DNA from: Flavobacteria bacterium BBFL7
GTDB taxonomy: Bacteria; Bacteroidota; Bacteroidia; Flavobacteriales; Flavobacteriaceae
Length of the DNA: 64,000 nt
Direction of reading: 5' to 3'
Assembly: GCA_000153385.1 (NCBI GenBank)
Contig: CH672374.1
Location: 1,800,544 to 1,864,543, forward strand
Part shown: positions 1-61,954 of the stretch, piece after piece
Position numbering within the stretch: position 1 is the stretch's first letter
Layout of the letters: every line of letters begins with the position of its first letter
Made by a program: the position numbers and the translations under genes
Notes under the pieces: generated by a model
Database searches by the model: none
Told to the model about the DNA's origin: nothing
The model's input: only the letters and a program-made list of their open reading frames with translations

Positions 1-460
1 CATTCATTTCAAAAACACCTGGTGTAGATTGTAAAATCTGTGATGCGTTTCCAGTACTCAGTGACGTATTTTCAACATTAAATATAAGTCGATCTGCTCT
101 ACGCTCTACAGTTGGTTTTTCAGCAATTAACATCACTGCATCTAGTTGTGCTGCATCGGTTTCTAGTTGTAGATTATTAAGGGCAGTATCATTTTGTAGA
201 GTCAGCTTTCGCGAAAGCGTAACATAACCAACAAATGAAGCCTTAAAATCATAATCACCAACTATTACATTTGAAAAAGTAAAAATTCCAGCCTCATTTG
301 AAGAGGTTCCATATTTAAAAGTTCCATCTTCAATATCTTGTAACACAAGATTTGCAAACGCAATAGGTGCTCCATCGGAATCAATAAGGTTTCCTGTAAG
401 ATTAATTTGAGCAAACGTACTTAAGGAAGTGAATAGTAATAAAATGGATATCAGTTTCAT
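1..460 (-). CDS. TonB-linked outer-membrane receptor, N-terminal part (runs off window)
   Basis: Reading the minus strand from the ATG at 460-458 gives an uninterrupted frame of 153 codons that leaves the window at base 1. It opens with a signal peptide (MKLISILLLFTSLSTFAQ). A carboxypeptidase-regulatory-like beta-sandwich follows, with GNLIDSDGAPIAFANLVLQD, a NEAGIFTFSNV strand and a SFVGYV strand. Next comes the stretch KPTVERRADRLIFNVENT, which resembles the plug entry of outer-membrane beta-barrel family receptors in Bacteroidota. The substrate cannot be told because the barrel lies outside the window. One dispersed palindrome copy sits in the coding region and reads TLSRK. The gene is divergent from lepA. 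Confidence 0.8.
   Translation of the reverse strand, partial: MKLISILLLFTSLSTFAQINLTGNLIDSDGAPIAFANLVLQDIEDGTFKYGTSSNEAGIFTFSNVIVGDYDFKASFVGYVTLSRKLTLQNDTALNNLQLETDAAQLDAVMLIAEKPTVERRADRLIFNVENTSLSTGNASQILQSTPGVFEMN
205..218. repeat. Dispersed palindrome copy 1 (in receptor CDS)
   Basis: GCTTTCGCGAAAGC with GT added on the right, so the 18-bp ideal is trimmed on the left. It lies inside the minus-strand receptor gene and is read there as Thr-Leu-Ser-Arg-Lys. Confidence 0.9.
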
Positions 461-523
461 GCCATAAATAAAAGAGCCTCTAAAATAGGAAAGCTCCTTA
501 AAAAATCGGGCAAGGAATTAGAT

Positions 524-531
524 TATATTTG
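524..531 (+). promoter_or_regulatory. Bacteroidota -7 element for lepA
   Basis: TATATTTG matches the Bacteroidota -7 consensus TAnnTTTG exactly and ends 19 bases before the lepA ATG. I see no convincing -33 TTTG partner. Confidence 0.5.
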
Positions 532-550
532 CAGCAGTATTTAACGGACT

Positions 551-2350
551 ATGAAGAACATACGCAATTTTTGCATCATCGCACACATTGACCACGGTAA
601 AAGCACACTGGCAGACAGACTGTTAGATGCAACCCATACGGTTACAAAACGTGAATCACAAGCACAGTTACTAGATAATATGGATCTAGAACGTGAGCGT
701 GGTATAACGATAAAATCCCATGCGATTCAAATGGATTACACCGCACCAGATGGTGAACAATACATTCTTAATCTGATAGATACACCTGGCCACGTAGATT
801 TTTCTTATGAGGTTTCTCGTTCTATCGCGGCTTGTGAAGGTGCTCTTTTAATTGTTGATGCTGCACAAAGTATTCAAGCTCAGACAATTTCTAATCTATA
901 TCTAGCACTAGAAAATGATCTAGAAATCATACCTGTACTTAATAAAGTAGATTTACCTAGTGCAAACGTAGAAGAGGTAACAGATGACATCGTTGACTTA
1001 TTAGGATGCGATCCTAGTGAAGTAATTCCTGCTAGTGCAAAAACAGGTTTAGGTATTCAAGATATTCTAGACGCAATTATAGAGCGTGTTCCTGCACCTA
1101 CTGGTAATGTTGATGAGCCGTTACAGGCTTTAGTTTTTGATTCACAATACAACCAGTTCCGTGGTGTAGAGACTATTTTTAGGGTTATTAATGGAACTAT
1201 AAAAAAAGGACAACACATCAAATTTGTCGCTACTGGCGAGAGTTATTATGCAGATGAAATAGGTACTTTGAAATTGAATCAAGTTCCTAAAAAAGAAATA
1301 AAAGCTGGTGATGTAGGTTACTTAATTACCGGTATTAAAGAGGCTAAAGAAGTAAAGGTAGGTGATACTATAACAGATCATTCAAACCCTACTACAAATC
1401 CGATTGAAGGTTTTGAAGACGTTAAGCCTATGGTTTTTGCCGGTATTTATCCAGTAGATACTGAAGACTATGAAGACTTACGTTCTAGTATGGAAAAACT
1501 ACAGTTAAACGACGCATCTTTGGTGTTTGCAGCAGAAAGTAGTGCTGCACTTGGTTTTGGATTCCGTTGTGGTTTTTTAGGTATGTTACACTTAGAAATC
1601 ATTCAAGAACGTCTAGAACGAGAGTTCAATATGACTGTTATCACAACTGTGCCTAACGTTTCTTATTATGCTTATACTAATAAAGAACCTGATGCGCGCA
1701 TTATCGTTAATAACCCAAGTGATTTACCAGAACCTTCTACATTAAATAGAGTTGAAGAACCATATATTAAAGCGACAATTATTACAAAATCAGATTTTGT
1801 AGGTAATGTGATGTCTTTATGTATTGAAAAACGTGGTATAGTTACTAATCAAACATACTTAACTACAGAGCGTGTTGAACTTACCTTTGACATGCCACTG
1901 GCCGAGATTGTTTTTGACTTCTACGATCGTTTAAAAACCGTTTCTAAAGGTTATGCATCATTTGACTATGCGCCTATAGGAATGCGTGTTTCTAAACTTG
2001 TAAGATTAGATGTTCTTTTAAATGCGCAACCTGTAGATGCTTTAAGTGCTTTAATACATGCTGACAACGCTTATACCATAGGTAAAAAGATGGTAGAAAA
2101 GCTGCGTGAACTCATCCCTAGACAACAATTTGATATACCTGTTCAAGCTGCTGTAGGAGCAAAAATTATTGCTCGTGAAACTATTAAAGCCCTACGTAAA
2201 GACGTAACGGCAAAATGTTATGGTGGTGATATCTCTCGTAAACGTAAGCTTCTAGAGAAACAAAAGAAAGGTAAGAAACGTATGCGCCAGGTAGGTAATG
2301 TAGAGATACCTCAACAGGCATTTATGGCGGTGTTGAAATTGAATGATTAA
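551..2350 (+). CDS. lepA: Elongation factor 4 (LepA), ribosome back-translocating GTPase
   Basis: This is a translational GTPase of 599 residues, the usual LepA length. The G-domain motifs are all visible: AHIDHGKST at residues 11-19 (P-loop), RGITI (switch I), DTPGH (switch II) and NKVD (base recognition). The rest follows the EF-G-like order of domain II, domains III and V, and the LepA-specific C-terminal domain, which is rich in basic residues ([20 protein letters not shown]). It acts on 70S ribosomes in the cytoplasm, where it remodels stalled or misassembled complexes. The gene is monocistronic, with a clear -7 element upstream and a strong hairpin downstream. Start at 551 is supported by the immediate [15 protein letters not shown] opening. 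Confidence 0.97.
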
Positions 2351-2388
2351 TAGAAAGTGGTATAAAAACCGCTATTTATATAAAATCT

Positions 2389-2426: not shown

Positions 2427-2442
2427 ATAATTATATTTCTTT

Positions 2443-4340: not shown

Positions 4341-4358
4341 ACGCTTTCGCGAAAGCGT
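4341..4358. repeat. Dispersed palindrome copy 2 (intergenic, full 18 bp)
   Basis: ACGCTTTCGCGAAAGCGT, a perfect 18-bp palindrome between the divergent antiporter and MBL-hydrolase genes. Confidence 0.95.
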
Positions 4359-7063: not shown

Positions 7064-7079
7064 CGCTTTCGCGAAAGCG
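7064..7079. repeat. Dispersed palindrome copy 3 (intergenic)
   Basis: CGCTTTCGCGAAAGCG with A on the left and G on the right. It sits immediately after the U-tract of the preceding terminator and before the M1 peptidase gene. Confidence 0.95.
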
Positions 7080-13179: not shown

Positions 13180-13192
13180 CTTAAAATATAAA

Positions 13193-13807
13193 ATGATGTT
13201 TTCTACTTTAGAACAAACCATTACAGACTTAAATATGGATGGAATTACGCTTTCGCGAAAGCGTATCCTAGACCAACTTAAAGATTATATTCAAAGTCAA
13301 ATTGACAATGAACAAAAGGTTAATCTTAACTTTATTTGCACACATAATTCCCGACGTAGTCACCTCTCACAATCATGGGCACAGGCTATAGGAAGTTTTT
13401 ATGGCATCAATAACTTACAATGTTATTCTGGTGGTACAGAAGCTACAGAGTTATTTCCAGAAGTTACTGAAGCTTTAAAAGATGCAGGTTTTCAAATTGA
13501 AAAACTATCAACAGATGAAAATCCTATTTATAGCATCAGATATAATGAGATCGATCATCCTATTATAGGATTTTCAAAGAAATTCAATGCAACATTTAAT
13601 GTACAACAACAATTTGCAGCCATTATGACCTGCTCGAGTGCAGATCAAGGTTGTCCACTAATATTAGGTGCTTCTGCTAGAATACCTATAACTTATGAAG
13701 ATCCTAAAATCGCTGACGGTACTGACCAACAAGCAGCTGCGTATAAAGAACGTAGTCTTCAAATAGCTAGTGAATTAAAATACGTCTTTTCAGAAATTAA
13801 GTTATGA
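13193..13807 (+). CDS. arsC: Low-molecular-weight phosphatase-type arsenate reductase
   Basis: I place the start at the ATG at 13193, just after the preceding gene's stop, which gives 204 residues; an in-frame upstream extension to 13154 would overlap that gene. The P-loop is CTHNSRRS, with Cys49 and Arg55 forming the CX5R site of the protein-tyrosine-phosphatase fold. The C-terminal half carries a [11 protein letters not shown] segment, whose Cys residues may serve the thiol relay of thioredoxin- or glutathione-linked arsenate reductases. It would reduce arsenate to arsenite for export. A dispersed palindrome near residue 20 reads ITLSRKRI. The stop overlaps the pump gene by 4 bp. Confidence 0.82.
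13247..13264. repeat. Dispersed palindrome copy 4 (in arsC-like CDS, full 18 bp)
   Basis: ACGCTTTCGCGAAAGCGT, perfect, read as Thr-Leu-Ser-Arg-Lys-Arg in a variable N-terminal helix of the arsC-like gene. Confidence 0.95.
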
Positions 13808-15509: not shown

Positions 15510-17720
15510 ATGAAAAAAATCATTTTATGCAGCATGTTGTTGCTGTGTTACGCTTTCGCGAAAGCGCAATCCAAAACAACCTACGATATCAACATCACTG
15601 TGGTATCTGATGAAAATAATGAACCATTACTAGGTGCAAACGCTTCCATCCAAAATCTCCAAAAAGGTGCGATGACGGATATTAATGGAAAAGGAATCAT
15701 TAATAACCTAGAGGCTGGGACTTATGAACTAACCGTTTCTTTTATAGGATACGAAAAACAAACCGTTACTGCCGTTATACCAGATCAACTGGACTATAGA
15801 TTTCAACTACACGAGGCAGAAGGCGAACTGGAAGAAATCATTATACAGTCTACACGTTCTTCTCGTAGTTTTAAACGCACACCTACTCGAGTAGAATTTA
15901 TAGGTGGAGAAGAGCTTATTGAAAAAACAGCCATGAACAGTACTAATATAGCTATGGTACTGAGAGAAAGTACTGGAATCCAGATGCAGCAAACTTCTCA
16001 AAGTAGTGCAAATCAATCCATACGTATTCAAGGATTGGATGGTAGATACACACAGTTGTTAAAAGATGGATTTCCACTTTATGGTGGTTTTGCTGGTGGA
16101 CTAAGTATCATGCAGGTGCCGCCATTAGATATTTCGCAATTTGAGATTATTAAAGGAAGTTCTTCAACTTTATATGGTGGTGGTGCCATTGCAGGACTGG
16201 TAAATATGCAGTCTAAAACACCAGATGATGAGGCAGAGTTAGATTTAATGTTGGTAGGTACACAAGCCTTAGGAGTTACTGGAAACGTGTTTTACAGCGC
16301 GCGTTATGATAAATGGGGAATGACCCTTTATGGAAGCGCAAATTCTCAAAAAGAATATGATCCAGATGGAGATGAATATTCTAATTTACCTCGAGCACGT
16401 ACCATTTCCCTAAATCCTAAGGTATTTTATTATCCTAGTGATAAAACAACCTTATGGCTAGGATTTAATGGTACATTTGATGATCGTAAAGGTGGAAATC
16501 TAGATGCTATAGATGGCGATAATAATGAATATCTAGAACAAAACATATCGCGCAGGTTAAGTACACAAGCCGTATGGGATACTCAACTTACAGATCATTC
16601 TAACTTCCAGTTTAAAAATAGTGTTGCCTATTTCAATAGAGAATTACTGATTCCTAATATGGATTTTAAAGGTAATCAGGTCAACACATTTACTGAGGTC
16701 AATTATAAGACCAATTCTACAAAATCTGATTGGGTTTTTGGTGCTAATCTATACACTTCTAGCTTTGATGAAGATGCGCAGATTAATGAACGTGATCAAA
16801 AAGATACTACGATAGGTGCTTTTGTAAATAATATCACAGACCTTAATGATAACTGGATATTAGAAACTGGTCTACGTACAGATTTTACAACAGATTGGGG
16901 TGCTTTTGTGTTACCTAGAGCTTCATTATTATATAAAAGTGATGGAAGGTTTACAAGTCGTTTAGGTGGTGGATTAGGTTATAAAATTCCTGATTTATTT
17001 ACTGAAGATGCAGAACGATTGAATTTTCAAAATGTAATGGCTATTGATAAAAATAATCTCGTGGCAGAGACCTCTTATGGTATGAATCTAGATTTTGATT
17101 ATGGGTTTGCTATTACTGATCAGATTAATTTCTCGATTAATCAATTATTTTATTTAACCGCCATAGATAACGGATTGCTACTTAATAGCAGTGCCACTAA
17201 TCCTGGGATGTTTGAGTATTCAAACGCGACAGATTTTACCTTAAGTCGTGGTGCAGAGACTAATATTAAATTCTCTTATAAAGATTTTAAATGGTTCTTA
17301 AACTATGCATTTATTGATACACAGCTTAATTATCTAGATGGTAATCCTCAAAAACCACTCACTGCAAAACACAACGCTGGTAGTGTTATAATGTATGAAA
17401 ATGAGAAATGGCGCATAGGTTATGAAACCTATTATACTGGTAAACAACTGTTATTTGATGGCTCAGATTCTCAAGATTTTTTATTGATGGGTCTGCTGGT
17501 TATGAAAAACTTTGATTGGGGAAATCTCTATATGAATTTTGAAAATCTAACAGATAGAAGACAGAGTCGCTACTCTCCTACTGTCACTACTGATATAACA
17601 GGAGTGCCCACTTTTAATGAAATATATGCACCTACAGATGGTTTTATCTTAAGTGCAGGAATCATATGGAAACCATTTGGTAATAAAAGTCATCACGGTC
17701 ATGGACATCATGATGATTAA
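15510..17720 (+). CDS. TonB-dependent receptor, probable metal uptake
   Basis: 736 residues. The signal peptide ends CYAFAKA-QSK, where the Ala-Lys-Ala cleavage site is encoded by a dispersed palindrome. Residues about 25-110 form a carboxypeptidase-regulatory-like domain (NEPLLGANASIQNLQKG, SFIGYEKQTV). The plug follows (IIQSTRSSRSFKRTPTRVE, IRIQGLDGRYTQLLKDGFPL, SSTLYGGGAIAGLVNMQS), then a 22-strand-type barrel. The C-terminus, GNKSHHGHGHHDD, is His-rich. A His-rich tail and the upstream His-rich partner point to Zn, Cu or Ni rather than siderophores or sugars. It works in the outer membrane with TonB-ExbBD. The gene ends at a long hairpin shared with a convergent gene. Confidence 0.9.
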   Translation: MKKIILCSMLLLCYAFAKAQSKTTYDINITVVSDENNEPLLGANASIQNLQKGAMTDINGKGIINNLEAGTYELTVSFIGYEKQTVTAVIPDQLDYRFQLHEAEGELEEIIIQSTRSSRSFKRTPTRVEFIGGEELIEKTAMNSTNIAMVLRESTGIQMQQTSQSSANQSIRIQGLDGRYTQLLKDGFPLYGGFAGGLSIMQVPPLDISQFEIIKGSSSTLYGGGAIAGLVNMQSKTPDDEAELDLMLVGTQALGVTGNVFYSARYDKWGMTLYGSANSQKEYDPDGDEYSNLPRARTISLNPKVFYYPSDKTTLWLGFNGTFDDRKGGNLDAIDGDNNEYLEQNISRRLSTQAVWDTQLTDHSNFQFKNSVAYFNRELLIPNMDFKGNQVNTFTEVNYKTNSTKSDWVFGANLYTSSFDEDAQINERDQKDTTIGAFVNNITDLNDNWILETGLRTDFTTDWGAFVLPRASLLYKSDGRFTSRLGGGLGYKIPDLFTEDAERLNFQNVMAIDKNNLVAETSYGMNLDFDYGFAITDQINFSINQLFYLTAIDNGLLLNSSATNPGMFEYSNATDFTLSRGAETNIKFSYKDFKWFLNYAFIDTQLNYLDGNPQKPLTAKHNAGSVIMYENEKWRIGYETYYTGKQLLFDGSDSQDFLLMGLLVMKNFDWGNLYMNFENLTDRRQSRYSPTVTTDITGVPTFNEIYAPTDGFILSAGIIWKPFGNKSHHGHGHHDD
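15551..15566. repeat. Dispersed palindrome copy 5 (in TonB receptor signal peptide)
   Basis: CGCTTTCGCGAAAGCG, preceded by A. Read as Ala-Phe-Ala-Lys-Ala exactly at the expected signal peptidase I cleavage site. Confidence 0.95.
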
Positions 17721-20006: not shown

Positions 20007-20022
20007 CGCTTTCGCGAAAGCG
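20007..20022. repeat. Dispersed palindrome copy 6 (just after rpiB stop)
   Basis: CGCTTTCGCGAAAGCG plus T, beginning 3 bp beyond the rpiB stop codon on the minus strand. Confidence 0.95.
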
Positions 20023-25319: not shown

Positions 25320-25335
25320 CGCTTTCGCGAAAGCG
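25320..25335. repeat. Dispersed palindrome copy 7 (intergenic)
   Basis: CGCTTTCGCGAAAGCG flanked by A on both sides, between the GIN-domain gene and the LysE-type gene. Confidence 0.95.
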
Positions 25336-28476: not shown

Positions 28477-28494
28477 ACGCTTTCGCGAAAGCGT
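28477..28494. repeat. Dispersed palindrome copy 8 (intergenic, full 18 bp)
   Basis: ACGCTTTCGCGAAAGCGT, perfect, 25 bp after the glnS stop. Confidence 0.95.
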
Positions 28495-32105: not shown

Positions 32106-33619
32106 GATAACTTCTTTATAGCATGTTGAATGCGAGCGATAGTTTGATTTTTACCTATCATACTTGCAATTTCAAACACATCAGGTCCCATCAAACTACC
32201 TACTAATGATAGTCTTAACGGCATCATTACTTTACCAAAGCCCATTTCTTGACTAGTAATCCAGCCTTTAACTGCGGTACTTAGACCAGTAGCGCTATCA
32301 TCTGTACAATCTTCAATAATTTTAATCACATCTGTCATGATGTTAGAAGTATCTTCTTTCCAAGCTTTTTTAACTGCTTTTTCATCATAAGAGTCAGGTG
32401 CAGTAAAGAAGAAACCAGCCAGTTCAAAAAGATCTTCTGTAAAAACAGCACGTTCTTTCACTAGACCACAAACTATATTCACATAATCCTGTGATCCATA
32501 ATCGATACCTTTTTCTTCTAACGCTTTCGCAAAAGCGGCACCTATAACAGCATCATCTTGTGCAACATACCATTGTTGTTGAAACCATTTTGCTTTTTCT
32601 GGATCATATTTTGCACCAGAACTATTTACTTTATCAAGACTAAAGGCTTGAACCAATTCATCAAGGCTGAAAATCTCTTGTTCAGTTCCTGGATTCCATC
32701 CTAGAAATGCCAGGATATTTATCATCGATTCTGGAAGAAAGCCATCTTGTTTAAAACCTGTAGAAACTTCTCCACTTTTAGGATCTTTCCATTCCAGAGG
32801 GAATACTGAAAAGCCCATTTTATCACCATCACGTTTACTTAATTTTCCTTTACCTGTAGGTTTTAGGATTAATGGTAGGTGAGCAAATTTAGGTCTGTCC
32901 CATCCAAAGCTTTCATAAAGTAATACATGTAACGCCATGCTAGGCAGCCATTCTTCACCACGTATCACGTGAGAAATTTTCATATCATGGTCGTCTACCA
33001 CATTAGCAAGGTGGTAAGTAGGCATTCCATCGCTTTTGAAAAGTACTTTATCATCGATAAGTGAGGTGTCTATTTCAATCCCTTTACGGATTTCATCAAA
33101 CATGTGTAGCGTTTTCAACTCTGGTTTAAAACGAATCACATAATCATCTCCACGATTGATACGCTCTTTTACTTCATCATTAGATAAGGTAAGTGAATTG
33201 GTAAAATCGTTACGATTGTTATGATTGTATATAAAGGTTTCCTTTTTTGCTTCTGCATTTTCACGAGCCGTTTGCAATTCTTGCGCAGTATCAAAAGCAT
33301 AATAGGCAGCACCATTTTCTATAAGGTCTAGTGCATATTGTTTGTACATTGATTTGCGTTCGCTTTGTCTATAAGGTCCACAGTCTCCTTCTTTTCCCGG
33401 TCCTTCATCATATGGGATTTGACACCATTTTAAAGCGTTAACTATGTAATCTTCAGCACCTTCTACATATCTATTTTGATCTGTATCTTCTATACGTAGT
33501 ACAAAAGTACCGTTATGTTTTTTTGCAAATAAATAATTGAACAATGCTGTTCTAACGCCACCTATATGTAATGGTCCTGTAGGACTAGGTGCAAATCTTA
33601 CTCTTACTGAAGTGCTCAT
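32102..33619 (-). CDS. gltX: Glutamate-tRNA ligase
   Basis: 505 residues. Class I motifs are RFAPSPTGPLHIGGVRTALFNYLFA (HIGH region) and GKLSKRDGDKMG (KMSKS region). VLRIEDTDQNRYV and the VDDHDMKISHVIRGEEWLPS segment mark it as GluRS. A C-terminal helical anticodon-binding domain completes it. It charges tRNA-Glu and supplies tetrapyrrole synthesis. A degenerate dispersed palindrome encodes AFAKA near residue 363 in the anticodon-binding part. Confidence 0.96.
   Translation of the reverse strand: MSTSVRVRFAPSPTGPLHIGGVRTALFNYLFAKKHNGTFVLRIEDTDQNRYVEGAEDYIVNALKWCQIPYDEGPGKEGDCGPYRQSERKSMYKQYALDLIENGAAYYAFDTAQELQTARENAEAKKETFIYNHNNRNDFTNSLTLSNDEVKERINRGDDYVIRFKPELKTLHMFDEIRKGIEIDTSLIDDKVLFKSDGMPTYHLANVVDDHDMKISHVIRGEEWLPSMALHVLLYESFGWDRPKFAHLPLILKPTGKGKLSKRDGDKMGFSVFPLEWKDPKSGEVSTGFKQDGFLPESMINILAFLGWNPGTEQEIFSLDELVQAFSLDKVNSSGAKYDPEKAKWFQQQWYVAQDDAVIGAAFAKALEEKGIDYGSQDYVNIVCGLVKERAVFTEDLFELAGFFFTAPDSYDEKAVKKAWKEDTSNIMTDVIKIIEDCTDDSATGLSTAVKGWITSQEMGFGKVMMPLRLSLVGSLMGPDVFEIASMIGKNQTIARIQHAIKKLS
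32522..32537. repeat. Dispersed palindrome copy 9 (degenerate, in gltX)
   Basis: CGCTTTCGCAAAAGCG, one mismatch from the ideal. In the coding direction the change is TTC to TTT, synonymous for Phe in AFAKA. Confidence 0.75.
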
Positions 33620-34899: not shown

Positions 34900-37800
34900 A
34901 TGAATAACTTTCAAATCATAGAGCACAAGCTCAAACGTTTTATTAAAAAATACTATACTAATGAGATCATCCGTGGTGTGATTTTATTTTTAGCTATAGG
35001 ATTACTTTATTTTTTATTTACCGTAGTAATAGAACATTTTCTATGGTTAAGTTCATTAGGTAGAACGATATTATTTGGTCTATTTATAGTAGTGCAAGTA
35101 GCGTTACTGTTCAAATTTGTTGGGATTCCAATAGCCAGACTTTTAAAACTATTTTCAGGTATTGATTTTAGGGATGCTAGTTCGATAATAGGAACTCATT
35201 TTCCCGAAGTGTCAGATAAGTTGATTAATGTTTTACAATTACATAAAAATGGAGGTGATGATGAGCTTACCTGGGCTAGTATTAATCAAAAAAGCGAAGA
35301 GTTAAAACCGATACCATTTTCTCTTGCAATAGACTTTAAAAAAAATAGTGCTTACCTTAAATATCTTGCCATTCCTGTTTTAATAATAGCCGCACTTTTT
35401 TTTACAGGTAATAATGATGTCATCACAGAAAGTTCAAAACGTGTCGCAGATTTTAATAATGAGTATATACCACCAGCACCATTTACTTTTAAGTTACTTA
35501 ATGAAGATTTAAACACCTTACAAAAACGTGACTTTAAACTTAATGTAGAAGTTGCTGGAAGAACAATCCCAGAAAACGCAAGTATAAACTTCAATAATCA
35601 AACTTATTACTTAACTCAAGAAGCTCCGGGAAGATTTAGTTTTGTATTTACTAATCCATTGACAGATACTCCATTTTATCTTAAAGCAAATGAAGTGCGT
35701 AGTGAAAATTTTGAACTTACTGTTGATGATGTTCCTTCCATTAATAAATTTCAGTTGGTGATGGACTATCCATCTTACACGGGTAAGAAAGATGAGGTTA
35801 TAAAAAGCACAGGAAACGCTTTGGTTCCACAGGGAACTAAGATTACCTGGAAGTTAGAAACCGCTGCCACAGACCATGTAGATTTTAAATATACTAACGC
35901 TGTAGAGTCGTTTGAAAAAGATGGTAATGATTTCGCTTTCGCGAAAGCGATATTAAAACCAATTAAATATGCTATTTCAACCAGTAATAATCATGTTAAA
36001 GATTTTGAAGAATTAAACTTTAAAATTGAAGTATCCAAAGATGAGTATCCAGAATTAACAATGGAAATGAAGAAAGACAGTATACAAAATAGTGTACTTT
36101 ATTTTAGAGGTCAGGCAGCAGATGATTATGGTATTAAGAAAATACAACTAGTTTATTTTGATAGTCAGGATAGTTCAAATAAACAGATTTATGAGTTAGG
36201 TAAAAATCGTGGAACATTTGACCAATTTTTGTTCACTTTTCCTGGTAATCTGCCTTTAATTGGTGGAATAGATTATCAATTCTATTTTGAAGTAATTGAT
36301 AATGATGCTGTTAATAACTTTAAGAGCTCAAAAAGTCAAGTTTTTGGTTTTAAAAAATCAACCAAAGAAGAAGAAGAACAGCAACAATTACAAGATCAAA
36401 AAAAATCTTTAGAAGAGTTAGAAAAATCACTACAAGAACAAGAAAAACAACAAGAAGAATTAAAGGAAATAAGTCAAGAACAAATTGAGAAGAAACAACG
36501 TGGCTTTAACGATAAAAAGAAGTTAGAACAAGCTCTAAAGAATCAACAAGATCAAGAACGTGAAATGCGTCAACAAATGGAGAAAATGAGGGATAACCTA
36601 GAGAAATCTAATCCTGATAAAGATCCTATGAAAGATGCTCTTAAAGAACGTCTTCAACAAAGTGAAGAGGAAATTAAAAAAAATGAAGAGTTACTTAAAG
36701 AACTACAAGAGTATCAGGATAAACTAAGTAAAGAAGATCTTAAAGAAAAAATTGAGAAAGCTCAAAAGAATTCAAAACAACAAAAACGTAATTTGAAACA
36801 ATTACTAGAGCTCACTAAAATGTATTATGTGACTCAAAAGTATGAGCAAATGATAGATAAGCTTAAAGATTTATCTGATAAGCAAGAGGAACAATCTAAA
36901 AAGCAAGGTGAAAAGAATAAAAAGTCCGAACAAGATTCTTTAAATCAGGAATACAAAGATTGGGAAAAGGAATTACAGGAACTAGAGAAAGAAAACAATG
37001 GTCTTAAAAAGCCGATGAAGTTAGATTTTGATCCACTTAATTCTCCAGAGATAAAGGAAGAACAACAACAATCTAGCGAGGATCTGGATAATTCTAAAAC
37101 ACAAGATGCCAAGAAAAAGCAAAAGAGTGCTGCAGATAAAATGAAGCAACAAGCTCAAGCAATGCAAGCGCAATTGAGTTCTGGTAAATCTGAAAAATTG
37201 AAAGAAGACGCAGATATGCTTAGACAGATATTAGATAATCTGATTGTATTTTCAAAGGAGCAAGAAAACGTCCTTAATGGTGTTAAGAATTTGAATAGGA
37301 ACAGTCCAAATTTTGGTAAAAAACTAAAAGTCCAAAAAGATTTAGAAAAAGCATTTAAGCATGTTGATGATAGTTTATTTGCTTTAGCTTCTCGTAATCC
37401 TGAGGTTGGAATTGATATCAATCGAGAAGTAACTGATATTTATTACTATATTGATAAATCTTTAGTACAACTAAGTGATTTTGAGATGAATAAGGGTCAA
37501 ATATCTCAACAATTTACATTAAATAGTGCTAATAAGCTTGCTAACTTATTAAGTAGTGCCATGGATGCTATGAATAATGCTATGGCTTTACCTGGCAAAG
37601 GTGAAGGTGAACCTGGAGAAGGTCAAAGTTCAGGTTTTCAATTACCTGATATTATAAAAAAACAGGAATCTTTGATGAAAGATGGTGGTGATGGTAAGGA
37701 AGGTGATGATGGTAAAAAACCTGGTGACGGTGAAGGAAAGAAACCAGGTGAAGGACAACCTGGAGAATCAGGTCCGCCTGGCCAAGGCGGCAAAGATGGT

Positions 37801-43310: not shown

Positions 43311-43354
43311 ACTGCAAATATAAAAGTATAGGCGCGAGGTTGTATCATAACCGC

Positions 43355-43362
43355 TATATTTG
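43355..43362 (+). promoter_or_regulatory. Bacteroidota -7 element for pgk
   Basis: TATATTTG, exact TAnnTTTG, 22 bp before the ATG at 43385. It lies inside the in-frame extension to 43340, so that extension is not likely translated. Confidence 0.6.
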
Positions 43363-43384
43363 TGACCATTCACAACATATAACT

Positions 43385-44569
43385 ATGAAGACGATTAACG
43401 ATATCAATTTTAAAGATAAAAAAGCTTTAGTAAGAGTAGACTTTAATGTACCACTCAATGATGATTTTGAGGTTACAGATACGACACGTATCCATGCTGC
43501 AAAGGATACGATTATTAAAATATTAGAAGATGAAGGATCTGTAATATTAATGTCACATCTAGGTCGTCCTAAAGGAAATCAAGAAGAATTCTCTTTGAAG
43601 CATATCGTTGCCGCTGCGACTGACATTCTAGGTGTTCAAGTGAAATTTGTAGAAGATACTATAGGAGATGCCGCTCAACAAGCAGCTGCAAACCTACAAC
43701 CATGCGAGGTTCTTTTATTAGAAAACTTAAGGTTTCATAGTGAAGAAACTGCTGGTGATTCCGCTTTCGCGAAAGCGTTATCTCAATTAGGAAATGTATA
43801 CGTAAATGACGCATTTGGTACTGCACATAGAGCACATGCCTCAACTGCAATTATCGCTCAATACTTTGAAGAAAAGTGCTTTGGTCACTTAATGACACGA
43901 GAAATAGAGAGTTTAAATAAAGTATTAGAAACTCCAGATCAACCTGTTGTAGCCATATTAGGTGGTGCAAAAGTTTCATCTAAGATTACAGTTATTGAAA
44001 ATATATTAGATAAAGTAGATGATTTAATCATCGCTGGTGGTATGGCTTATACTTTTATTAAAGCACAAGGTGGTAAAATAGGTGATTCTCTATGTGAGGA
44101 TGATAAAATGGGACTAGCTTTAGAAATTCTTGAAAAAGCTAAATCAAAAAACACAAATATTCATTTACCTGTAGACGCTATTACTGCAGACGCCTTTTCT
44201 GAGCATGCAACGATGGATAACGCCGCTATAGATGAGATTCCTAATGGTTGGATGGGATTAGATATAGGTGAAAAATCTAGATCAGAATTTCATACCGTAT
44301 TAATGCAAGCTAAAACTATTCTATGGAATGGTCCTGCTGGTGTATTTGAACTCGAACCTTTTTCACATGGTACTATATCACTAGGGAAATCTGTTGCTGC
44401 TTCTACTGCTGCTGGAGCATTTTCTTTAGTAGGTGGTGGTGACTCTGTAGCTGCAGTAAAACAATTTGGTTTTGATAATCAAGTAAGCTATGTATCTACT
44501 GGTGGTGGTGCCATGCTAGAAATGTTAGAAGGTAAAACACTTCCTGGTATTGCAGCCATATTGGACTAA
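43385..44569 (+). CDS. pgk: Phosphoglycerate kinase
   Basis: 394 residues from the ATG at 43385. Conserved blocks: ALVRVDFNVPLND (substrate-binding N-terminal domain), MSHLGRPKG, NLRFHSEE, VYVNDAFGTAHRAHAS, PVVAILGGAKVSSKI, GGMAYTF, WNGPAGVFE and SLVGGGDSVAAV near the nucleotide site. It catalyses 1,3-bisphosphoglycerate + ADP to 3-phosphoglycerate + ATP in glycolysis. Palindrome copy 11 encodes the AFAKALS stretch directly before VYVNDAFG, a place where many PGKs carry similar residues. The transglycosylase gene follows after 15 bp. Confidence 0.97.
   Translation: MKTINDINFKDKKALVRVDFNVPLNDDFEVTDTTRIHAAKDTIIKILEDEGSVILMSHLGRPKGNQEEFSLKHIVAAATDILGVQVKFVEDTIGDAAQQAAANLQPCEVLLLENLRFHSEETAGDSAFAKALSQLGNVYVNDAFGTAHRAHASTAIIAQYFEEKCFGHLMTREIESLNKVLETPDQPVVAILGGAKVSSKITVIENILDKVDDLIIAGGMAYTFIKAQGGKIGDSLCEDDKMGLALEILEKAKSKNTNIHLPVDAITADAFSEHATMDNAAIDEIPNGWMGLDIGEKSRSEFHTVLMQAKTILWNGPAGVFELEPFSHGTISLGKSVAASTAAGAFSLVGGGDSVAAVKQFGFDNQVSYVSTGGGAMLEMLEGKTLPGIAAILD
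43762..43777. repeat. Dispersed palindrome copy 11 (in pgk)
   Basis: CGCTTTCGCGAAAGCG, perfect 16 bp, read as Ala-Phe-Ala-Lys-Ala before the conserved VYVNDAFG block. Confidence 0.95.
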
Positions 44570-44584: not shown

Positions 44585-46161
44585 ATGTATAAATTCTTTT
44601 TCATCTTTTTTGCGATTTCTATGGGGTCAGTAGCGCAAGTTACACCAGATAGTACAAGTACTTCTAGTCGTATCATCACCTATGAGGAGTTCAAAAAAAA
44701 TCAGCAACAAGAACAGCAAGCTTTATCAGTATCAGATACAATTAAGCCTGTTACAGAAATAGTAATAGATAGTACTGCGATCGTTAGTATACCTGTATTA
44801 ACAGTGACTGATGCTGGTATTAATGAATATCCAGAGGTTGACGAATTTGACGAGAAATTACTTAAAGAATTGTATAATAATGACATGTATGATTACATGT
44901 ATGATGAAGTTATACAAATGGACTATAGTGAAGCTGTCATGAAATCCTTGCCTACAGACACACTTAAAGCACGTCTGAAACGTATTAATGAGAGCACACC
45001 ATTTCAAATAGATTACAATCCTGTATTAGAGCAATTAATTAATAAAAAGCTGAGTCACCAGCGTATCTATATGGAACGCTTAATGACTTTGAGTGATTAT
45101 TATTTTCCGCTATTTGAGGAGATGCTAGATAAATATGATATACCATTAGAGATGAAGTATCTAGCTGTAGTAGAAAGTGCACTAGATCCTAGAGCAAAAG
45201 TCGTGTAGGAGCTACTGGATTATGGCAGTTTATGTTTGCAACAGGCCGTGATTTTGATCTTCAAGTAAATTCTTATGTAGATGAACGCATGGATCCTATT
45301 AAATCTACTGAAGCTGCTTGTAAATTTTTAAAGAGTTTATATAATATTTATGGAGATTGGGATTTGGCTTTGGCAGCTTATAATTCTGGTCCTGGAAATG
45401 TAAATAAGGCTATTAGACGTAGTGGTGGATATAAAAACTATTGGAATCTAAGACCATATTTACCACGTGAGACAGCAGGATATGTGCCAGCTTTTCAAGC
45501 TATGGTATATTTATACACATATGCCAGCGAGCATGGTTTTCAACCTGCGCAAACCGCTTATAAAACAATTGCGACAGACACGATACGAGTAAAGAAAATG
45601 ATTTCTTTAGATCACGTTGCTCAATTTACTGATGAAGATATTGAAACTATACAATTTCATAATCCCAGCTATAAATTAGACATTATTCCAGCGGTTTCTG
45701 GTAGAAATTATTATTTGAGATTGCCGGTAAGAGCAGCAGGGAAATTTGTGAGTAGTGAGGATGCGGTATACGCTTTCGCGAAAGCAGAATTCGACAAAAA
45801 AGAAAAGCCATTACCAGAACTCGTTAAAGCAGAGTCACGTGTAGTTTATCGTGTTAAAAGTGGAGACTATTTAGGTAAAATTGCTAATAGATATGGTGTA
45901 AGAGTAAGCCAGCTCAAAAGGTGGAACAGTCTACGTAACAATAATTTAAAAATAGGACAGCGATTATATATTCATCCCAGAAGGCCCGTTACCAGTAGTG
46001 CTTCAAACACAAAAAAAGCACCTGGTAATTACAAAGTAAAAAGTGGTGATAGCTTATGGAAAATAGCAAACACCTATGGCATAACTATTGCTCAAATTAG
46101 AAAATTGAATCCTGGTAAAACCGAAGATTTACAACCAGGCACTACTTTAAAACTTAAATAA
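44585..46161 (+). pseudogene. mltD: MltD-like lytic transglycosylase with LysM repeats, frameshifted
   Basis: Two adjacent frames (44585-45208 and roughly 45199-46161) together make one protein. The first part has a signal peptide, an acidic spacer and the start of the SLT domain up to the catalytic AVVESALDPRAK. A missing A in the AAAA run at 45196-45199 then shifts the frame into a stop. Adding one A restores AKSRVGATGLWQFMFATG, the normal continuation. The second part carries the rest of SLT (LALAAYNSGPGNVNKAI) and two LysM repeats (YRVKSGDYLGKIANRYGV and YKVKSGDSLWKIANTYGI). It would cleave peptidoglycan in the periplasm. It could be a sequencing error, a true mutation or a recoding site. 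Confidence 0.88.
45771..45785. repeat. Dispersed palindrome copy 12 (in transglycosylase)
   Basis: CGCTTTCGCGAAAGC followed by A instead of G, read as Tyr-Ala-Phe-Ala-Lys-Ala. The change is synonymous (GCG to GCA). Confidence 0.9.
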
Positions 46162-50118: not shown

Positions 50119-51852
50119 ATGCCTATACTTAACGTAGAACCACGCACAAGAGCCCAAGAAAGTACAAATGCTATCGAGCGCATGTATATAACCATGCGAC
50201 ATTTATTTAATCGTGGCTTTTATAAACCTATGGGTGTGAGTGGAGAATCATTAAGAGAATCACTACTTACCTTAAGACCAGAAATCTATGGTTCTATTGC
50301 TGAGGAGAAAATAGAGCTCAGCGGTTTACTTTACGTGATGGACCGTTTACCAGAAGGTATTGAAGAGTGTTCTTATATCAATTTAACTAGTGACGAAGGC
50401 TATCAAGGCTCACATTTTAAAGCGATTATCCCTAAAAAGAGACGTCGCAACTGCTATCGTATCGATAAGCACCAGATGAATATTGAGGTCACTCGTGGTC
50501 GCTCAGAGATCTATGACATCTTAACACACCTTACCTTTCTTATGATAGAATCTCATAAAATTATGAAGCAGGTTCTAGTTGGTGATAATGGTAGTACCAC
50601 TCGCGACTGGAAATGTCTTGAGGCAGTTGTAGGAAAAACTAAACTAACACAGCAAGAGAAAGAAGTTGCCGTAACACATGTAGCGACCATTTTGGGTCGC
50701 ACATTTGAAGAAGTGATGAGCGTTTATAATGATTTTGCAACTGCAAAAAATCCTCATCAGTTTCTAAGTACCATCTATCATTTAGGTAATCTTGCAAAGA
50801 AAGAGATCCTAGATGGGGAAAAGAGATTGGTGACATTCTCTCCTGTTTTAAGAGAACGCCTAGGTCATCATATTCATGGCGATAAATGGGCGTTACGTAT
50901 CAAGCAGCATCTAGTAGATCATAACTTATTTGACAGACCATTACATATCATTAGTGCAAACTTGCATAGTGTGATGAATTCACTCTATGGACCTAAAGCG
51001 CTAGAAGCAAAGTTGAAAAATAGCGACCGTATGGAATTGTTTGCGACTCTTAGTAATGACGCCGCAAAGAAAGATCGTGACGCTATTAAAAAACATGCTC
51101 TTGCAAACGGTATGTCTTATCTCAAGGACGAGAGTGGTACTAATATAGACGTACAAATTTTTGATATGTCCCAGTGCCAGTACATGGATGTAGATTTTTG
51201 TTCAGTTAGCTTTCGCGAAAGCGAGGAAAACACAAAGCCAGTGCTAATTGTTATGGACTACGCTTTTGGAGAACAGGCTTATGAAACCATGGATGAGTTG
51301 TTGAAACCATACAAAGATGAAAATGGTAAACTGCATTTAATGAACATGAAGTCTATCAACATCATGGGTAAAGCAGGAATACTAGAAGGAGATAAAGGTG
51401 ATATCATGGTTCCTGATGCACATGTTTTTGAAGGTACTGCAGATAATTACCCGTTTAAAAATAAACTGACTAAAAAAGATTTAAAAACGGATGGTATCAA
51501 TGTAGTAGCCGGTTCTATGGTGACTGTATTAGGTACTTCGCTACAAAATAAAGACTTATTACAATTCTTCTATAGTTCTAGCTGGCGTGTTATAGGATTA
51601 GAGATGGAAGGCGCTCATTACCAAAAAGCGATACAGGCAGCCTCTCGAGTACGTCGCAGTATCAATAAAAAGATCAATGTGCGATATGCATATTATGCTA
51701 GTGATAATCCATTAAAGACAGGTCACACACTTGCCAGTGGTGGATTAGGTCTTACAGGAGTAAAACCAGTATATGTCATTACTGAGAAGATTCTTGAACA
51801 GATCATGGAAAATAGTGTCGCGCCAGAAATAAGTACCCCAAATATAATTTAA
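50119..51852 (+). CDS. DUF6909-like protein with nucleoside-phosphorylase-like C-terminal part
   Basis: 577 residues, soluble. The first 250 residues are helical (RTRAQESTNAIERMYITMRHLFNRGFYKPMG) without recognisable motifs. The C-terminal half contains PVLIVMDYAFGEQAYETM, IMGKAGILEGDKGDIMVPDAH and WRVIGLEMEGAHYQKAI. The last resembles the E-M-E-G ribose-binding motif of purine nucleoside phosphorylases and MTA/SAH nucleosidases, with an Asp further on (YYASDNPLKTG). I recall the family as DUF6909; the catalysed reaction is not known to me. Palindrome copy 13 reads SFRES. It stands alone, with 70 bp to the wzz-like gene. Confidence 0.7.
   Translation: MPILNVEPRTRAQESTNAIERMYITMRHLFNRGFYKPMGVSGESLRESLLTLRPEIYGSIAEEKIELSGLLYVMDRLPEGIEECSYINLTSDEGYQGSHFKAIIPKKRRRNCYRIDKHQMNIEVTRGRSEIYDILTHLTFLMIESHKIMKQVLVGDNGSTTRDWKCLEAVVGKTKLTQQEKEVAVTHVATILGRTFEEVMSVYNDFATAKNPHQFLSTIYHLGNLAKKEILDGEKRLVTFSPVLRERLGHHIHGDKWALRIKQHLVDHNLFDRPLHIISANLHSVMNSLYGPKALEAKLKNSDRMELFATLSNDAAKKDRDAIKKHALANGMSYLKDESGTNIDVQIFDMSQCQYMDVDFCSVSFRESEENTKPVLIVMDYAFGEQAYETMDELLKPYKDENGKLHLMNMKSINIMGKAGILEGDKGDIMVPDAHVFEGTADNYPFKNKLTKKDLKTDGINVVAGSMVTVLGTSLQNKDLLQFFYSSSWRVIGLEMEGAHYQKAIQAASRVRRSINKKINVRYAYYASDNPLKTGHTLASGGLGLTGVKPVYVITEKILEQIMENSVAPEISTPNII
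51209..51222. repeat. Dispersed palindrome copy 13 (in DUF6909-like CDS)
   Basis: GCTTTCGCGAAAGC plus GA on the right, read as Ser-Phe-Arg-Glu-Ser. It is the only coding copy in this third frame. Confidence 0.95.
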
Positions 51853-54829: not shown

Positions 54830-55362
54830 TTGTAAAAGAAACTTCATTAAAAGATTGCTACATCATCAAGCCGCCTGTTTTTGGGGACGATCGCGGTTAT
54901 TTTAGTATAAGACATGATAAAAATGCTTTCGCAAAAGCGTTTCCTCAACATCCACCATTTGTATTACATAACGAGTCTTTTTCAAGTTATGGAGTGCTGC
55001 GTGGTTTACATCTACAAAAAGGAAATGCTGCTCAAGCAAAGCTAGTGCGTTGTGTACAAGGTAAAATTCTTGATGTTGCAGTAGATTTTAGACCAGATTC
55101 ACCTACTTACTTACAACACTTTTCTATTGAATTAAGTGGCGATAATCATCTACAACTTTTAGTTCCTAGAGGATTTCTACATGGCTTTTCTGTACTTTCA
55201 GAAACAGCAATCGTAAATTATCAAGTAGATAACTCTTATCAACCAGAGACGGAATTTGGGATACGATATGATGACCCTACGTTGAATATTGATTGGCAAA
55301 TTCCTACTACAGATATCCAATTATCTGAGAAGGATGAGAAATTAGGATATTTAAAGCTGTAA
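54826..55362 (+). CDS. rfbC: dTDP-4-dehydrorhamnose 3,5-epimerase
   Basis: 178 residues of the RmlC cupin-like fold. [33 protein letters not shown] (catalytic His in GLHLQ), [19 protein letters not shown] and [14 protein letters not shown] are family blocks. It epimerises C3 and C5 of the keto-sugar, step 3 of dTDP-rhamnose synthesis. A degenerate palindrome (copy 14) encodes NAFAKAF near the N-terminus. rfbD follows after a 131-bp gap with a stem-loop element. Confidence 0.96.
54925..54939. repeat. Dispersed palindrome copy 14 (degenerate, in rfbC)
   Basis: GCTTTCGCAAAAGCG, one mismatch from the ideal core. Read as AFAKA; the change GCG to GCA is synonymous. Confidence 0.75.
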
Positions 55363-55493: not shown

Positions 55494-56330
55494 TTGAAAA
55501 AAGTTATCATCACAGGAGCAAATGGCATGTTAGGCACAGCAATAAAAAAGGCTCTGTCTGCACAAGATGTTTATGCATTTTCCAGTAATGAATTAGATAT
55601 AACCTGTTCACAGCAATTACACAAAAAGATTGCTGCTATACAACCTCATTACATCATTAACTGTGCTGCTTACACAGCCGTTGATCTAGCTGAAACAGAG
55701 CAAGAAAAAGCCTATAGGATTAATGCGCTTGCGGTTCAAAAAATGGCGCAAATAGCTGATCAATATGACGCCACATTAATTCATTTCTCTACAGATTATG
55801 TTTTTAATGGTGATGCAGCAACTCCTTATACATCAAATCAAGAAACCGACCCTATAAATATTTACGGCGCTAGTAAACTAGCTGGCGAAAAAGCCATAAG
55901 TCAGGTTAATGGTAAACATTATATTTTTAGGATTTCTTGGTTGTACGCAGCACATGGCAAGAATTTTTTCAATTGGGTAGCTGGAACAGATCTTGAAGAA
56001 TTGAACATAGTTGATTCTCAAACGGGTTCACCGACTAGTGCTCTAGATGTTGCTAATTTTATTAATCATCTTCTCAACAATGATCCCGCAAATTATGGAG
56101 TTTACCACTTTACAAATCAAGGTGAGATGACTTGGTACGCTTTCGCGAAAGCGATAAATCAAAAACTGGATTTAGGCAAAAATATAAATGCAGTAGCCGA
56201 ATTTAAAACCATCGCAAAACGACCAGCCTATAGCGTGATGGATTGTGGAGAAACACAGCGTGTTTTTGATTATGAAATCACAAGTGTGGAAAATGGATTA
56301 GATGAGGTAGTGAGGAAATCTACTTCTTAA
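55494..56330 (+). CDS. rfbD: dTDP-4-dehydrorhamnose reductase
   Basis: 278 residues starting with TTG, because the NAD(P) motif VIITGANGMLGTAI begins at the second codons and no in-frame ATG lies upstream nearby. The SDR catalytic part is HFSTDYVFNGD and YGASKLAGEKAI. TWYAFAKAI corresponds to the WYxFA block common in RfbD and is encoded by palindrome copy 15. The enzyme makes dTDP-L-rhamnose, completing the set rfbB, A, C, D. Confidence 0.94.
   Translation: MKKVIITGANGMLGTAIKKALSAQDVYAFSSNELDITCSQQLHKKIAAIQPHYIINCAAYTAVDLAETEQEKAYRINALAVQKMAQIADQYDATLIHFSTDYVFNGDAATPYTSNQETDPINIYGASKLAGEKAISQVNGKHYIFRISWLYAAHGKNFFNWVAGTDLEELNIVDSQTGSPTSALDVANFINHLLNNDPANYGVYHFTNQGEMTWYAFAKAINQKLDLGKNINAVAEFKTIAKRPAYSVMDCGETQRVFDYEITSVENGLDEVVRKSTS
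56138..56153. repeat. Dispersed palindrome copy 15 (in rfbD)
   Basis: CGCTTTCGCGAAAGCG, perfect 16 bp, read as Tyr-Ala-Phe-Ala-Lys-Ala at the WYxFA motif. Confidence 0.95.
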
Positions 56331-59656: not shown

Positions 59657-59679
59657 GCTTTAAATTTATCTAGTAAACT

Positions 59680-59714: not shown

Positions 59715-59719
59715 TTATA

Positions 59720-59734
59720 CGCTTTCGCGAAAGC
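59720..59734. repeat. Dispersed palindrome copy 16 (intergenic, after terminator)
   Basis: CGCTTTCGCGAAAGC, preceded by A and followed by A. It sits a few bases behind the T-tract of the terminator, as copy 3 does. Confidence 0.93.
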
Positions 59735-59786
59735 AAATAAAACAAGTCCTAAGGAAACCTTATTTTTACAGCTTTACAAATATTAT

Positions 59787-60914
59787 ATGTCTGAAAAGAA
59801 TCATAAAGTTGCATTGATTACTGGTGTAACCGGTCAAGATGGTGCTTATTTAAGTGAGTTTTTATTAAAAAAAGGATATGAAGTACACGGTATCAAGCGC
59901 CGTGCTTCATTGTTTAATACAGATCGTATCGATCATCTGTATCAAGATCCGCATGAGACTGATGTAAAGTTTAAATTACATTACGGCGATCTTACAGATA
60001 CTACTAACTTAACTAGAATCATCAAAGAAACACAACCAGACGAGATTTATAATCTTGCGGCTATGTCACATGTACAAGTTTCTTTTGAAATGCCAGAATA
60101 CACCGCAAATGCCGACGGAATAGGTGCGTTACGTATCCTAGAATCTGTACGCTTGCTAGGAATGGAAAAGAAGACTAAAGTTTATCAAGCTTCTACATCA
60201 GAATTGTATGGTAAGGTGCAAGAAATTCCACAATCAGAAACGACTCCATTCTATCCGCGCAGTCCATATGCGGTAGCAAAAATGTATGCCTACTGGGCAA
60301 CGGTAAATTACCGTGAAGCTTATGGTATGTTTGCTTGTAATGGGATTCTTTTTAACCATGAATCTCCAGTACGTGGAGAGACATTTGTAACCAGAAAAAT
60401 TACTCGTGCGACTTCCAAAATCGTAAAAGGACTTCAAGATAAAGTGTATTTAGGTAACCTAGATGCAAAACGAGATTGGGGACACGCTAAGGATTATGTA
60501 CGCATGATGTGGATGATCTTACAACACGATGAGCCAGAAGATTGGGTTATCGCCACAGGAACAACGACTAGCGTGCGTGATTTTGTACGTATGGCTTTTC
60601 AGTACGTAGGAATAGAAATAGAATTTAATGGTGAAGGCGTGGATGAGAAAGGAATGGTGAAGTCCTGCTCAAATCCAGATTATCAACTAGAAATAGGAAA
60701 AGAAGTAGTGGCGGTAGATCCACGATATTTCCGTCCTACAGAGGTGGATTTATTAATCGGTGACCCTACTAAAGCCAAAGAAAAACTGGGTTGGGTTCCA
60801 GAAATCGTCCTTCAAGAACTCGTTAACGACATGATGAAAAGTGATTTACACTTAATGTCTCGGGAAGAATATTTAAAAAGTGGTGGTTATAGAATTAACA
60901 ACTACTTTGAATAA
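59787..60914 (+). CDS. gmd: GDP-mannose 4,6-dehydratase
   Basis: 375 residues. The NADP site is [53 protein letters not shown] (Ser/Thr, Glu) and [12 protein letters not shown] (Tyr-x3-Lys) are diagnostic. It converts GDP-mannose to GDP-4-keto-6-deoxymannose, which fcl then turns into GDP-L-fucose. Its last base is the first base of the fcl ATG, so the two are translationally coupled. Confidence 0.97.
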
Positions 60915-61954
60915 TGAATAAAGATTCAAAAATATACGTCGCTGGACATCGTGGACTTGTAGGAAGCGCCATCGTTAGTGAGTTAAAAAAATTAGGTTAC
61001 ACAAATTTTGTCCTGAAAACTCACAAAGAGCTAGACCTTACAAATCAACAAGCCACAGCAGACTTTTTTGCAACTGAAAAACCAGAATATGTCTTTCTTG
61101 CAGCGGCGAGTGTAGGTGGTATTGTAGCAAATAATACTTACAGAGCAGATTTTATCTATAAAAACCTCATGATTCAAAATAACGTGATCCATCACAGTTA
61201 TTTGAATGGTGTGAAAAAATTATTGTTTCTAGGAAGCACATGCATCTATCCTAAAATGGCACCGCAGCCCATGCCAGAGGACAGTTTACTTACTGGACCA
61301 CTAGAATATACAAACGAGCCTTATGCGGTAGCAAAAATCGCTGGGATCAAGATGTGTGAGAGCTATAACTTACAATATGGCACCAATTTTATCTCTGTAA
61401 TGCCTACTAATTTATATGGTCCTAACGATAATTTTGATTTAGAGAAATCACATGTACTGCCAGCGCTAATTCGTAAAATGCACCTAGGTAAATTATTAAT
61501 GGATGGAAATGAGCAAGCGTTAATGGAGGATTTAGGTGTTGATGATATCGCTTTCGCGAAAGCGGAATTACAAAAACACGGTATCACAGAAAATGGCATC
61601 GCTTTATGGGGAACTGGCTCACCAAAACGAGAGTTCTTATGGTCACATGACATGGCAAAAGCCTGTGTGTACCTCATGGAAAACAAAGATTTTACTGACG
61701 TTAAAGGAACCGATAAAGAAGTAAGAAACACCCATCTCAACATAGGAACTGGTGAAGATATTGCAATAAAAGAGCTCGCAGAGATGATAAAAAAAACAGT
61801 AGGTTATCAAGGAAAACTAGATTGGGATGCTACAAAACCAGACGGTACACCGCGCAAATTGACGGATGTTTCAAAACTCCACAACCTAGGATGGAAACAC
61901 GAGATAGATCTTGAAAAAGGTGTAGAGATGATGTATGAGGCTTATTTGAATTAA
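60914..61954 (+). CDS. fcl: GDP-L-fucose synthase
   Basis: 346 residues, SDR family. [14 protein letters not shown] is the NADP site; [36 protein letters not shown] and [15 protein letters not shown] are the family blocks. It epimerises and reduces the Gmd product to GDP-L-fucose. Around residues 205-235 it has a variable segment that contains the AFAKA from palindrome copy 17. The gene overlaps gmd by 1 bp. Confidence 0.97.
61549..61564. repeat. Dispersed palindrome copy 17 (in fcl)
   Basis: CGCTTTCGCGAAAGCG, perfect 16 bp, read as Ile-Ala-Phe-Ala-Lys-Ala in a variable segment of fcl. Confidence 0.95.

Follow-up and report, generated by a model that had tools for sequence, protein, structure and literature searches.

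We analysed a window of 64,000 nucleotides (64 kb; the whole stretch of DNA under study) from Flavobacteria bacterium BBFL7 (GCA_000153385.1, contig CH672374.1, positions 1,800,544 to 1,864,543), in which a GC-rich palindrome with the 10-base core TTTCGCGAAA is dispersed in unusually high number. We infer that this palindrome is bound as duplex DNA by a putative symmetric protein whose function is exerted over kilobase distances. Going one step further, we tentatively favour the view, to which we give slightly less than an even chance, that the palindrome is a high-specificity duplex site of a symmetric putative chromosome-organising protein and is occupied about every 3–6 kb. The support for this view consists of the clade-specific abundance of the palindrome, its symmetry, its even spacing, the position of near-miss copies in the gaps between exact ones, the constraint on individual sites and their presence on phages and genomic islands.

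Abundance and taxonomic distribution

The window contains 15 exact copies of TTTCGCGAAA compared to a mean of 0.06 in 100 dinucleotide shuffles, and two copies with one mismatch (32525, 54927). No other 10-base palindrome exceeds 4 copies. An earlier note on this DNA had listed the same 15 core starts and both one-mismatch copies, and its statement that such a word should be nearly absent by chance is borne out by the shuffles. It had described the element as an 18-bp palindrome, which is correct for the best copies only: the full 18-mer is present at 3 of the 15 exact copies (4345, 13251, 28481), whereas the 14-mer GCTTTCGCGAAAGC, read from the flanks, is common to all 15. The extension to CTTTCGCGAAAG is likewise found in 15 of 15 and the 16-mer CGC...GCG in 11 of 15. 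As the note had indicated, copies occur both in genes and between them; by the list of open reading frames (ORFs) 8 exact copies lie inside ORFs and 7 are intergenic (Table 1).

A genome-wide count, which had been proposed in the earlier note, yields 582 copies of TTTCGCGAAA in the 3.10 Mb of the window's genome but only 4 of the reversed word, and the full 14-mer occurs 551 times. The density is 188 per Mb or 1 per 5.3 kb. The palindrome is thus neither confined to the window nor near its expected frequency. All 23 Nonlabens genomes tested, including that of the window, carry 319–893 copies, compared to 0–12 in 36 genomes outside the genus but within its family and order. A survey of the family covered 397 genomes, of which six were motif-rich, namely four Nonlabens, G234 (559 copies) and G250 (1107 copies); the remaining 391 had at most 34. 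G250 appears to resemble Dokdonia, judging from its motif density and G+C content. The search in related genera, also suggested earlier, revealed that Dokdonia is rich in the motif (32 copies in seven named loci and 1195 copies in the 5.5 Mb genome of Dokdonia pacifica) and that most of the family is poor. Among 296 Bacteroidota genomes the 14-mer exceeded 4 copies only in the genome of the window.

RNase R places Nonlabens ulvanivorans (98%) closest to the window among named relatives, and the genus assignment of the window is based on this match. A tree of 35 RNase R sequences (the window and 34 of 80 loci, with L035 labelled motif-rich on the basis of 2 sites in 13 kb) has motif-poor genera between Nonlabens and Dokdonia and requires two label changes. 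The motif would have been gained twice, or once with subsequent losses, and a single origin is not supported. Genus dialects of the motif were not detected, as the loci around RNase R contain no comparable word. Two other words were observed in these surveys: Salegentibacter loci such as L051 carry a recurrent word around CTGAACTTGTTTCAG, up to six times per 22-kb locus, that looks like a dispersed hairpin, and CTTTACGGAAA, possibly another dispersed motif, is present in 5 copies in single 22-kb loci (L061 and L071; Haloflavibacter, uncultured Mesonia).

Architecture of the site

Sites in the window's genome share the symmetric consensus CGCTTTCGCGAAAGCG, and the consensus of Dokdonia is longer (TACGCTTTCGCGAAAGCGTA). 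When 164 own-genome sites were picked by their 10-base core, the GC flanks were present on both sides in 97% and the 16-mer was complete in 74%. The 14-mer was found 79 times in 464 kb, whereas control palindromes made by shuffling the half-sites gave 0 in 60 draws. In Nonlabens a flank signature, rich in T and poor in C, extends 5' of each half to about -25, whether the site is coding or intergenic; with it the unit measures about 50 bp in all. Past about -40 the composition is close to background. The 5' flanks are GT-rich (0.64). G250 has a weaker form of this flank signature. The information content amounts to about 33 bits per site, a value that is partly built in because the sites were chosen by their exact core. 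Lone half-sites outside the palindrome are few; for words like GCTTTCG the reversed-word control is useless in this comparison, since the reversal is itself part of the motif.

Complementary flank pairs number 5.26 per site compared to 5.18 in shuffles, and 27% of the shuffles were as high. The two halves vary independently, which argues for recognition of the duplex by a protein and not for a hairpin. An RNA hairpin, a terminator or an inserted palindromic repeat would agree with the palindromic sequence and with the enrichment between genes, where 61 of the 164 sites are found in about 9% of the DNA. However, the other 103 sites are genic and use every reading frame (27, 23, 53), and covariation between the flanks is absent. 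Moreover, the one coding site examined differs by substitutions with no gap at the motif, and convergent intergenic regions hold no excess of sites (6 of 60 typed sites, compared to 15% of intergenic DNA). We regard this explanation as extremely improbable. Gene calls of G234 were left out, as their coding fraction was 0.73 with a caller trained on Nonlabens.

Evenness of spacing

On 520 kb of contig C1 the gaps between exact sites (n=105) have a coefficient of variation (CV) of 0.58, and those between exact and one-mismatch sites taken together (n=119) of 0.47. Placements matched for class (coding or intergenic) gave a CV of 1.02, and none of 5000 was as low as either set. Few sites are closer than about 2 kb: only 4 pairs on C1 are less than 1.5 kb apart compared to 42.6 expected, and the ratio of observed to expected pairs reaches 1 near 3 kb. 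Exact sites are also more even than random in G250 (CV 0.57, 0 of 5000 placements as low), in G234 (CV 0.65, 20 of 5000) and on contig C4 of Nonlabens G003 (59 sites, CV 0.69, P 0.0004). These data agree with the earlier description of the copies as spread and not clustered.

The one-mismatch copies tend to occupy the gaps. On C1 their mean distance to the nearest exact site is 4.1 kb compared to 1.76 kb for random positions (n=14, fraction 0.0005), and the same trend is seen in G234 (n=3, 0.019), G250 (n=7, 0.018) and the window (n=2, 0.06). Adding them lowers the CV in C1 and G234. Two-mismatch copies in G250 gave a gap fraction of 0.013. On contig C2, 12 of 14 sampled 20-kb stretches carry 2–5 sites, with no obvious regional thinning by eye. 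Two stretches were recorded as site-poor: L209 (C2:1-20000 of the window's genome) lacks an exact site over 20 kb and contains several similar-sized ORFs and a reverse transcriptase domain protein, and L213 has 1 site and mixed content. Two of the close site pairs on C1, inspected for hints of autoregulation, offered nothing suggestive.

The earlier note had likened the motif in style to HIP1 of cyanobacteria, and this comparison holds loosely. HIP1 and the alternate HIPs are likewise perfect GC-rich palindromes that are massively over-represented, clade-specific and found in genes and between them, HIP1 being presented as highly iterated in passages of PMC4390886. A motif of this type could be made or kept by a DNA methylase together with mismatch repair. 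However, the palindrome is longer (14–16 bp compared to 5–8 bp) and sparser (188 per Mb compared to around 500–2500 per Mb for HIP sequences according to section 2.3 of PMC4390886), and a mutational process does not account for its exclusion zone, that is, for the scarcity of close pairs. Nor does it track the two methylase families tested, PF00145 and PF01555: a match to PF00145 is missing in 6 of 14 motif-rich genomes, one to PF01555 in 3 of 11, and G007 has neither despite its 791 copies. C5 and N4/N6 methylases, not being universal in motif-rich genomes, were rejected as partners of the motif, and we consider a HIP1-type origin very unlikely.

Conservation and origin of individual sites

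The one coding site that we examined, in the gene of RNase R, arose by substitution without insertion: four Nonlabens loci have SRK where the window has TQK. Constraint was assessed in 7 Nonlabens sequences and 5 of the 7 Dokdonia loci, using flank identity as the neutral rate, counting pairs in both directions and leaving out sites without an alignable flank. In Nonlabens, all 16 site comparisons at a flank identity of 0.80–0.95 were perfectly kept compared to 15–29% expected, and at 0.70–0.80 this applied to 56% of 61 compared to 2% expected. Dokdonia gave 67% of 6 compared to 10% expected at 0.80–0.90 and 50% of 14 compared to 2% at 0.70–0.80. Together with the even spacing, this conservation and the substitution origin of one coding site support the earlier proposal of a selected, dispersed motif that is not of mobile-element origin.

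A parS-like nature of the sites is not supported either. Both parS and Noc sites are contiguous palindromes with TTTC...GAAA arms that are recognized symmetrically. The palindrome resembles them in its contiguity and its arms, and symmetric recognition is predicted for it as well; it could accordingly be a parS- or Noc-like site, or one of nucleoid occlusion, read by a protein of the ParB family. However, it has hundreds of sites, with no obvious trend across the sampled stretches of C2, and the parS pair itself is retained, exact or with one mismatch, in 5 of 5 motif-rich genomes tested. A single ParB_N match was obtained in 7 of 8 motif-rich genomes and two in G014, the second in a frame of 616 aa (the row for G262 in this survey is empty). 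Since no second small ParB is present in the motif-rich genomes tested, a second ParB or Noc was dismissed as a candidate, and we judge this explanation highly improbable.

Two observations on ParB and parS stand by themselves. A longer second frame with a ParB_N domain occurs in G014, G145, G065, G188 and G074 (599–616 aa in four, broken in G074), in motif-rich and motif-poor genomes alike, and is probably located on mobile elements. In the window, exact words of what we take to be the canonical parS consensus at 38830-38843 and 40722-40735 flank the mnmG/gidA ORF (38851-40722). All 4 of the other motif-rich genomes tested keep such a pair, about 1.9 kb apart and exact or with a single mismatch, and its conservation suggests that the chromosome origin region is near the window.

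Phages, islands and motif-poor genomes

The Nonlabens phages P12024S and P12024L have no site in 35.7 kb each; as close relatives they count as about one observation. Both carry an annotated ERF-type recombination gene. Among the viral matches listed, phage contigs with portal, terminase, tail-sheath or tape-measure genes carry sites, and an integrase is present in four of the site-bearing phage contigs examined. Among 39 motif-poor genomes, picked for their higher counts in the family survey, the 14-mer is present in 32 and is often clustered. The clusters retrieved lie on islands with genes for outer-membrane and RND efflux proteins, multicopper oxidase and heavy-metal ATPase, and conjugation genes are found on several of these site-bearing copper-type resistance islands. 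The efflux protein of one island is 97–99% identical in Nonlabens G019, G017 and G008 and 98% identical in G250; 19 of 26 genomes have some match to it and the genome of the window has none. The outer-flank signature scores a median of 2.1 bits at phage sites (25 phage loci, picked for low G+C or several sites and including near-duplicates) and 3.0 bits at island sites; the median is -4.6 bits for the copies of other motif-poor genomes, and the null has a mean of -6.0. We read this as phage and island DNA having acquired sites while resident in motif-rich hosts.

Of the 21 exact 14-mers retrieved from motif-poor genomes, 18 lie in ORFs, with homology between genomes in several cases. The other 3 are intergenic, and one pair among them is located between ychF-type and DUF2459 genes. 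No regulator recurs beside the 21 copies. We therefore read them as coincidences and have discarded an ancestral transcription-factor operator as their source. The third intergenic copy, a full 18-mer between FUR-family and RelA/SpoT-type genes (L361 3998-4021, motif-poor genome G583), is possibly an ordinary operator of the same putative protein.

Sites in the window

Table 1. Positions of exact (14-mer) and one-mismatch sites in the 64-kb window.
Site	Positions	Strand	Context
14-mer, core 207-216	205..218	.	between ORFs, upstream of lepA (551-2350)
14-mer, core 4345-4354, full 18-mer	4343..4356	.	between divergent ORFs
14-mer, core 7067-7076	7065..7078	.	between ORFs 5378-7006 and 7118-8980
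14-mer, core 13251-13260, full 18-mer	13249..13262	.	inside ORF 13154-13807
14-mer, core 15554-15563	15552..15565	.	inside TonB-dependent receptor ORF 15510-17720, near start
14-mer, core 20010-20019	20008..20021	.	between ORFs; 14/14 bases conserved in L001, L002, L003
14-mer, core 25323-25332	25321..25334	.	between ORFs
14-mer, core 28481-28490, full 18-mer	28479..28492	.	between ORFs
One mismatch, core at 32525	32523..32536	.	inside ORF 32102-33619 (-); in gap between 28481 and 35937
14-mer, core 35937-35946	35935..35948	.	inside ORF 34900-38442
14-mer, core 43765-43774	43763..43776	.	inside ORF 43340-44569
14-mer, core 45774-45783	45772..45785	.	inside ORF 45232-46161
14-mer, core 51211-51220	51209..51222	.	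inside ORF 50119-51852
One mismatch, core at 54927	54925..54938	.	inside ORF 54826-55362; 1.2 kb from nearest exact site
14-mer, core 56141-56150	56139..56152	.	inside ORF 55494-56330
14-mer, core 59723-59732	59721..59734	.	between ORFs 57425-59656 and 59787-60914
14-mer, core 61552-61561	61550..61563	.	inside ORF 60914-61954

Discussion

A role for the palindrome was not found in the open-licence literature of PubMed Central, whether for the exact word, the 14-mer or palindromes of Nonlabens and Dokdonia, and the earlier note had known of none either. Judging by their titles, the papers that contain the exact word do not deal with a comparable genome-wide motif of bacteria. A broader query named neither genus among the best 10 of 1,143 matches. 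In the mechanism that we propose, a putative symmetric protein, dimeric or larger, would bind the double-stranded palindrome and would organize or anchor the chromosome, for example by bridging or by anchoring loops at regular intervals. The value of a site would drop when another is present within about 2 kb. Selection would then act to fill gaps and would give no advantage to close pairs. DNA that has long been resident in motif-rich hosts would gain sites, and transfer would bring them to other genera.

Several points weigh against this proposal. Only the spacing points to chromosome organization as the function, which we accordingly hold to be possible but still on the doubtful side, and a binding protein was not found among the candidate families tested. 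Adding one-mismatch sites did not lower the CV in G250 (0.57 to 0.59) or in the window (0.44 to 0.45). Two-mismatch copies show no clear preference for gaps on C1 (fraction 0.11) or in G234 (0.16). The wide footprint does not apply throughout, as G234 lacks the outer-flank signature (median -1.9 bits). Marking 600 sites in 3.1 Mb would take ~13 bits per site, far less than the 33 or so that a site contains. In addition, even spacing has been ascribed to uptake sequences as well: passages of PMC7811141 call the distribution of the uptake signal sequence (USS) relatively even, as expected under neutral accumulation.

The palindrome could also be a DNA uptake sequence (DUS), with a competence receptor that prefers palindrome-bearing DNA and sites that accumulate by biased uptake and recombination. 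Like USS and DUS it is a clade-specific word with hundreds of dispersed copies, in genes and between them, and with AT-rich flanks in Nonlabens. The substitution origin of the coding site examined, the presence of sites on exchanged islands and on phages and their absence from the two related Nonlabens phages would also fit. The evenness is disputed ground: according to PMC1939737, Karlin et al. had seen in the regular spacing of uptake sequences a hint of a role in replication, repair or compaction. PMC1939737 disputes this and describes uptake sequences as less even than compaction sites should be. The same paper describes uptake sequences as non-palindromic, whereas our motif is perfectly palindromic. 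Moreover, its near misses are rare, with 100 exact compared to 16 one-mismatch 14-mers in 520 kb; for the uptake word of A. pleuropneumoniae, whose length of 10 bases differs from that of the 14-mer, PMC1939737 lists 438 exact and 947 one-mismatch copies. Competence data for Nonlabens or Dokdonia were not among the best 10 of the 1,143 literature matches. We consider an uptake function rather unlikely.

Alternatively, the site could be a Chi-like mark of self DNA that halts or retargets an end-processing nuclease such as AddAB, in which case self DNA would need one every few kb. Chi is a short asymmetric word that is read on one strand, whereas the palindrome is a longer, symmetric site of 14–16 bp without orientation. 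Both matter at kb range and their densities are similar, 1 per 5.3 kb being close to E. coli Chi, for which PMC1939737 gives 1008 copies in about 4.64 Mb. The GT-rich 5' flanks and the ERF-type gene of the two site-free phages would also agree with such a mark, as would matches to PF12705 in 8 of 8 motif-rich genomes tested, which we read as AddAB-type from their frame sizes. However, PF12705 also matched in 6 of 6 motif-poor genomes tested; being present in 14 of 14 genomes, it does not discriminate and was rejected as a correlate of the motif, which is clade-restricted although these proteins are shared. We find a Chi-like function unlikely. Redundancy of close sites is predicted by the uptake and the Chi-like explanations just as by an anchoring protein.

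Returning to a chromosome-organising protein, a more specific and somewhat more speculative version would be a nearly periodic scaffold encoded in the sequence: some 600-1200 high-affinity anchors for one dedicated protein, 3–6 kb apart and each surrounded by an exclusion zone of ~2 kb. Genes would have to accommodate these anchors too, at the expense of amino-acid changes, and prophages and conjugative islands would acquire them during residence. So far there is no agreement on what HIP1 and other dispersed genomic motifs do. The palindrome is an unusually clean case, since it is long, sharply defined and measurable in its spacing, and motif-rich Nonlabens and Dokdonia beside motif-poor relatives, as well as phages and islands with or without the motif, provide the contrasts in which its function may be studied.

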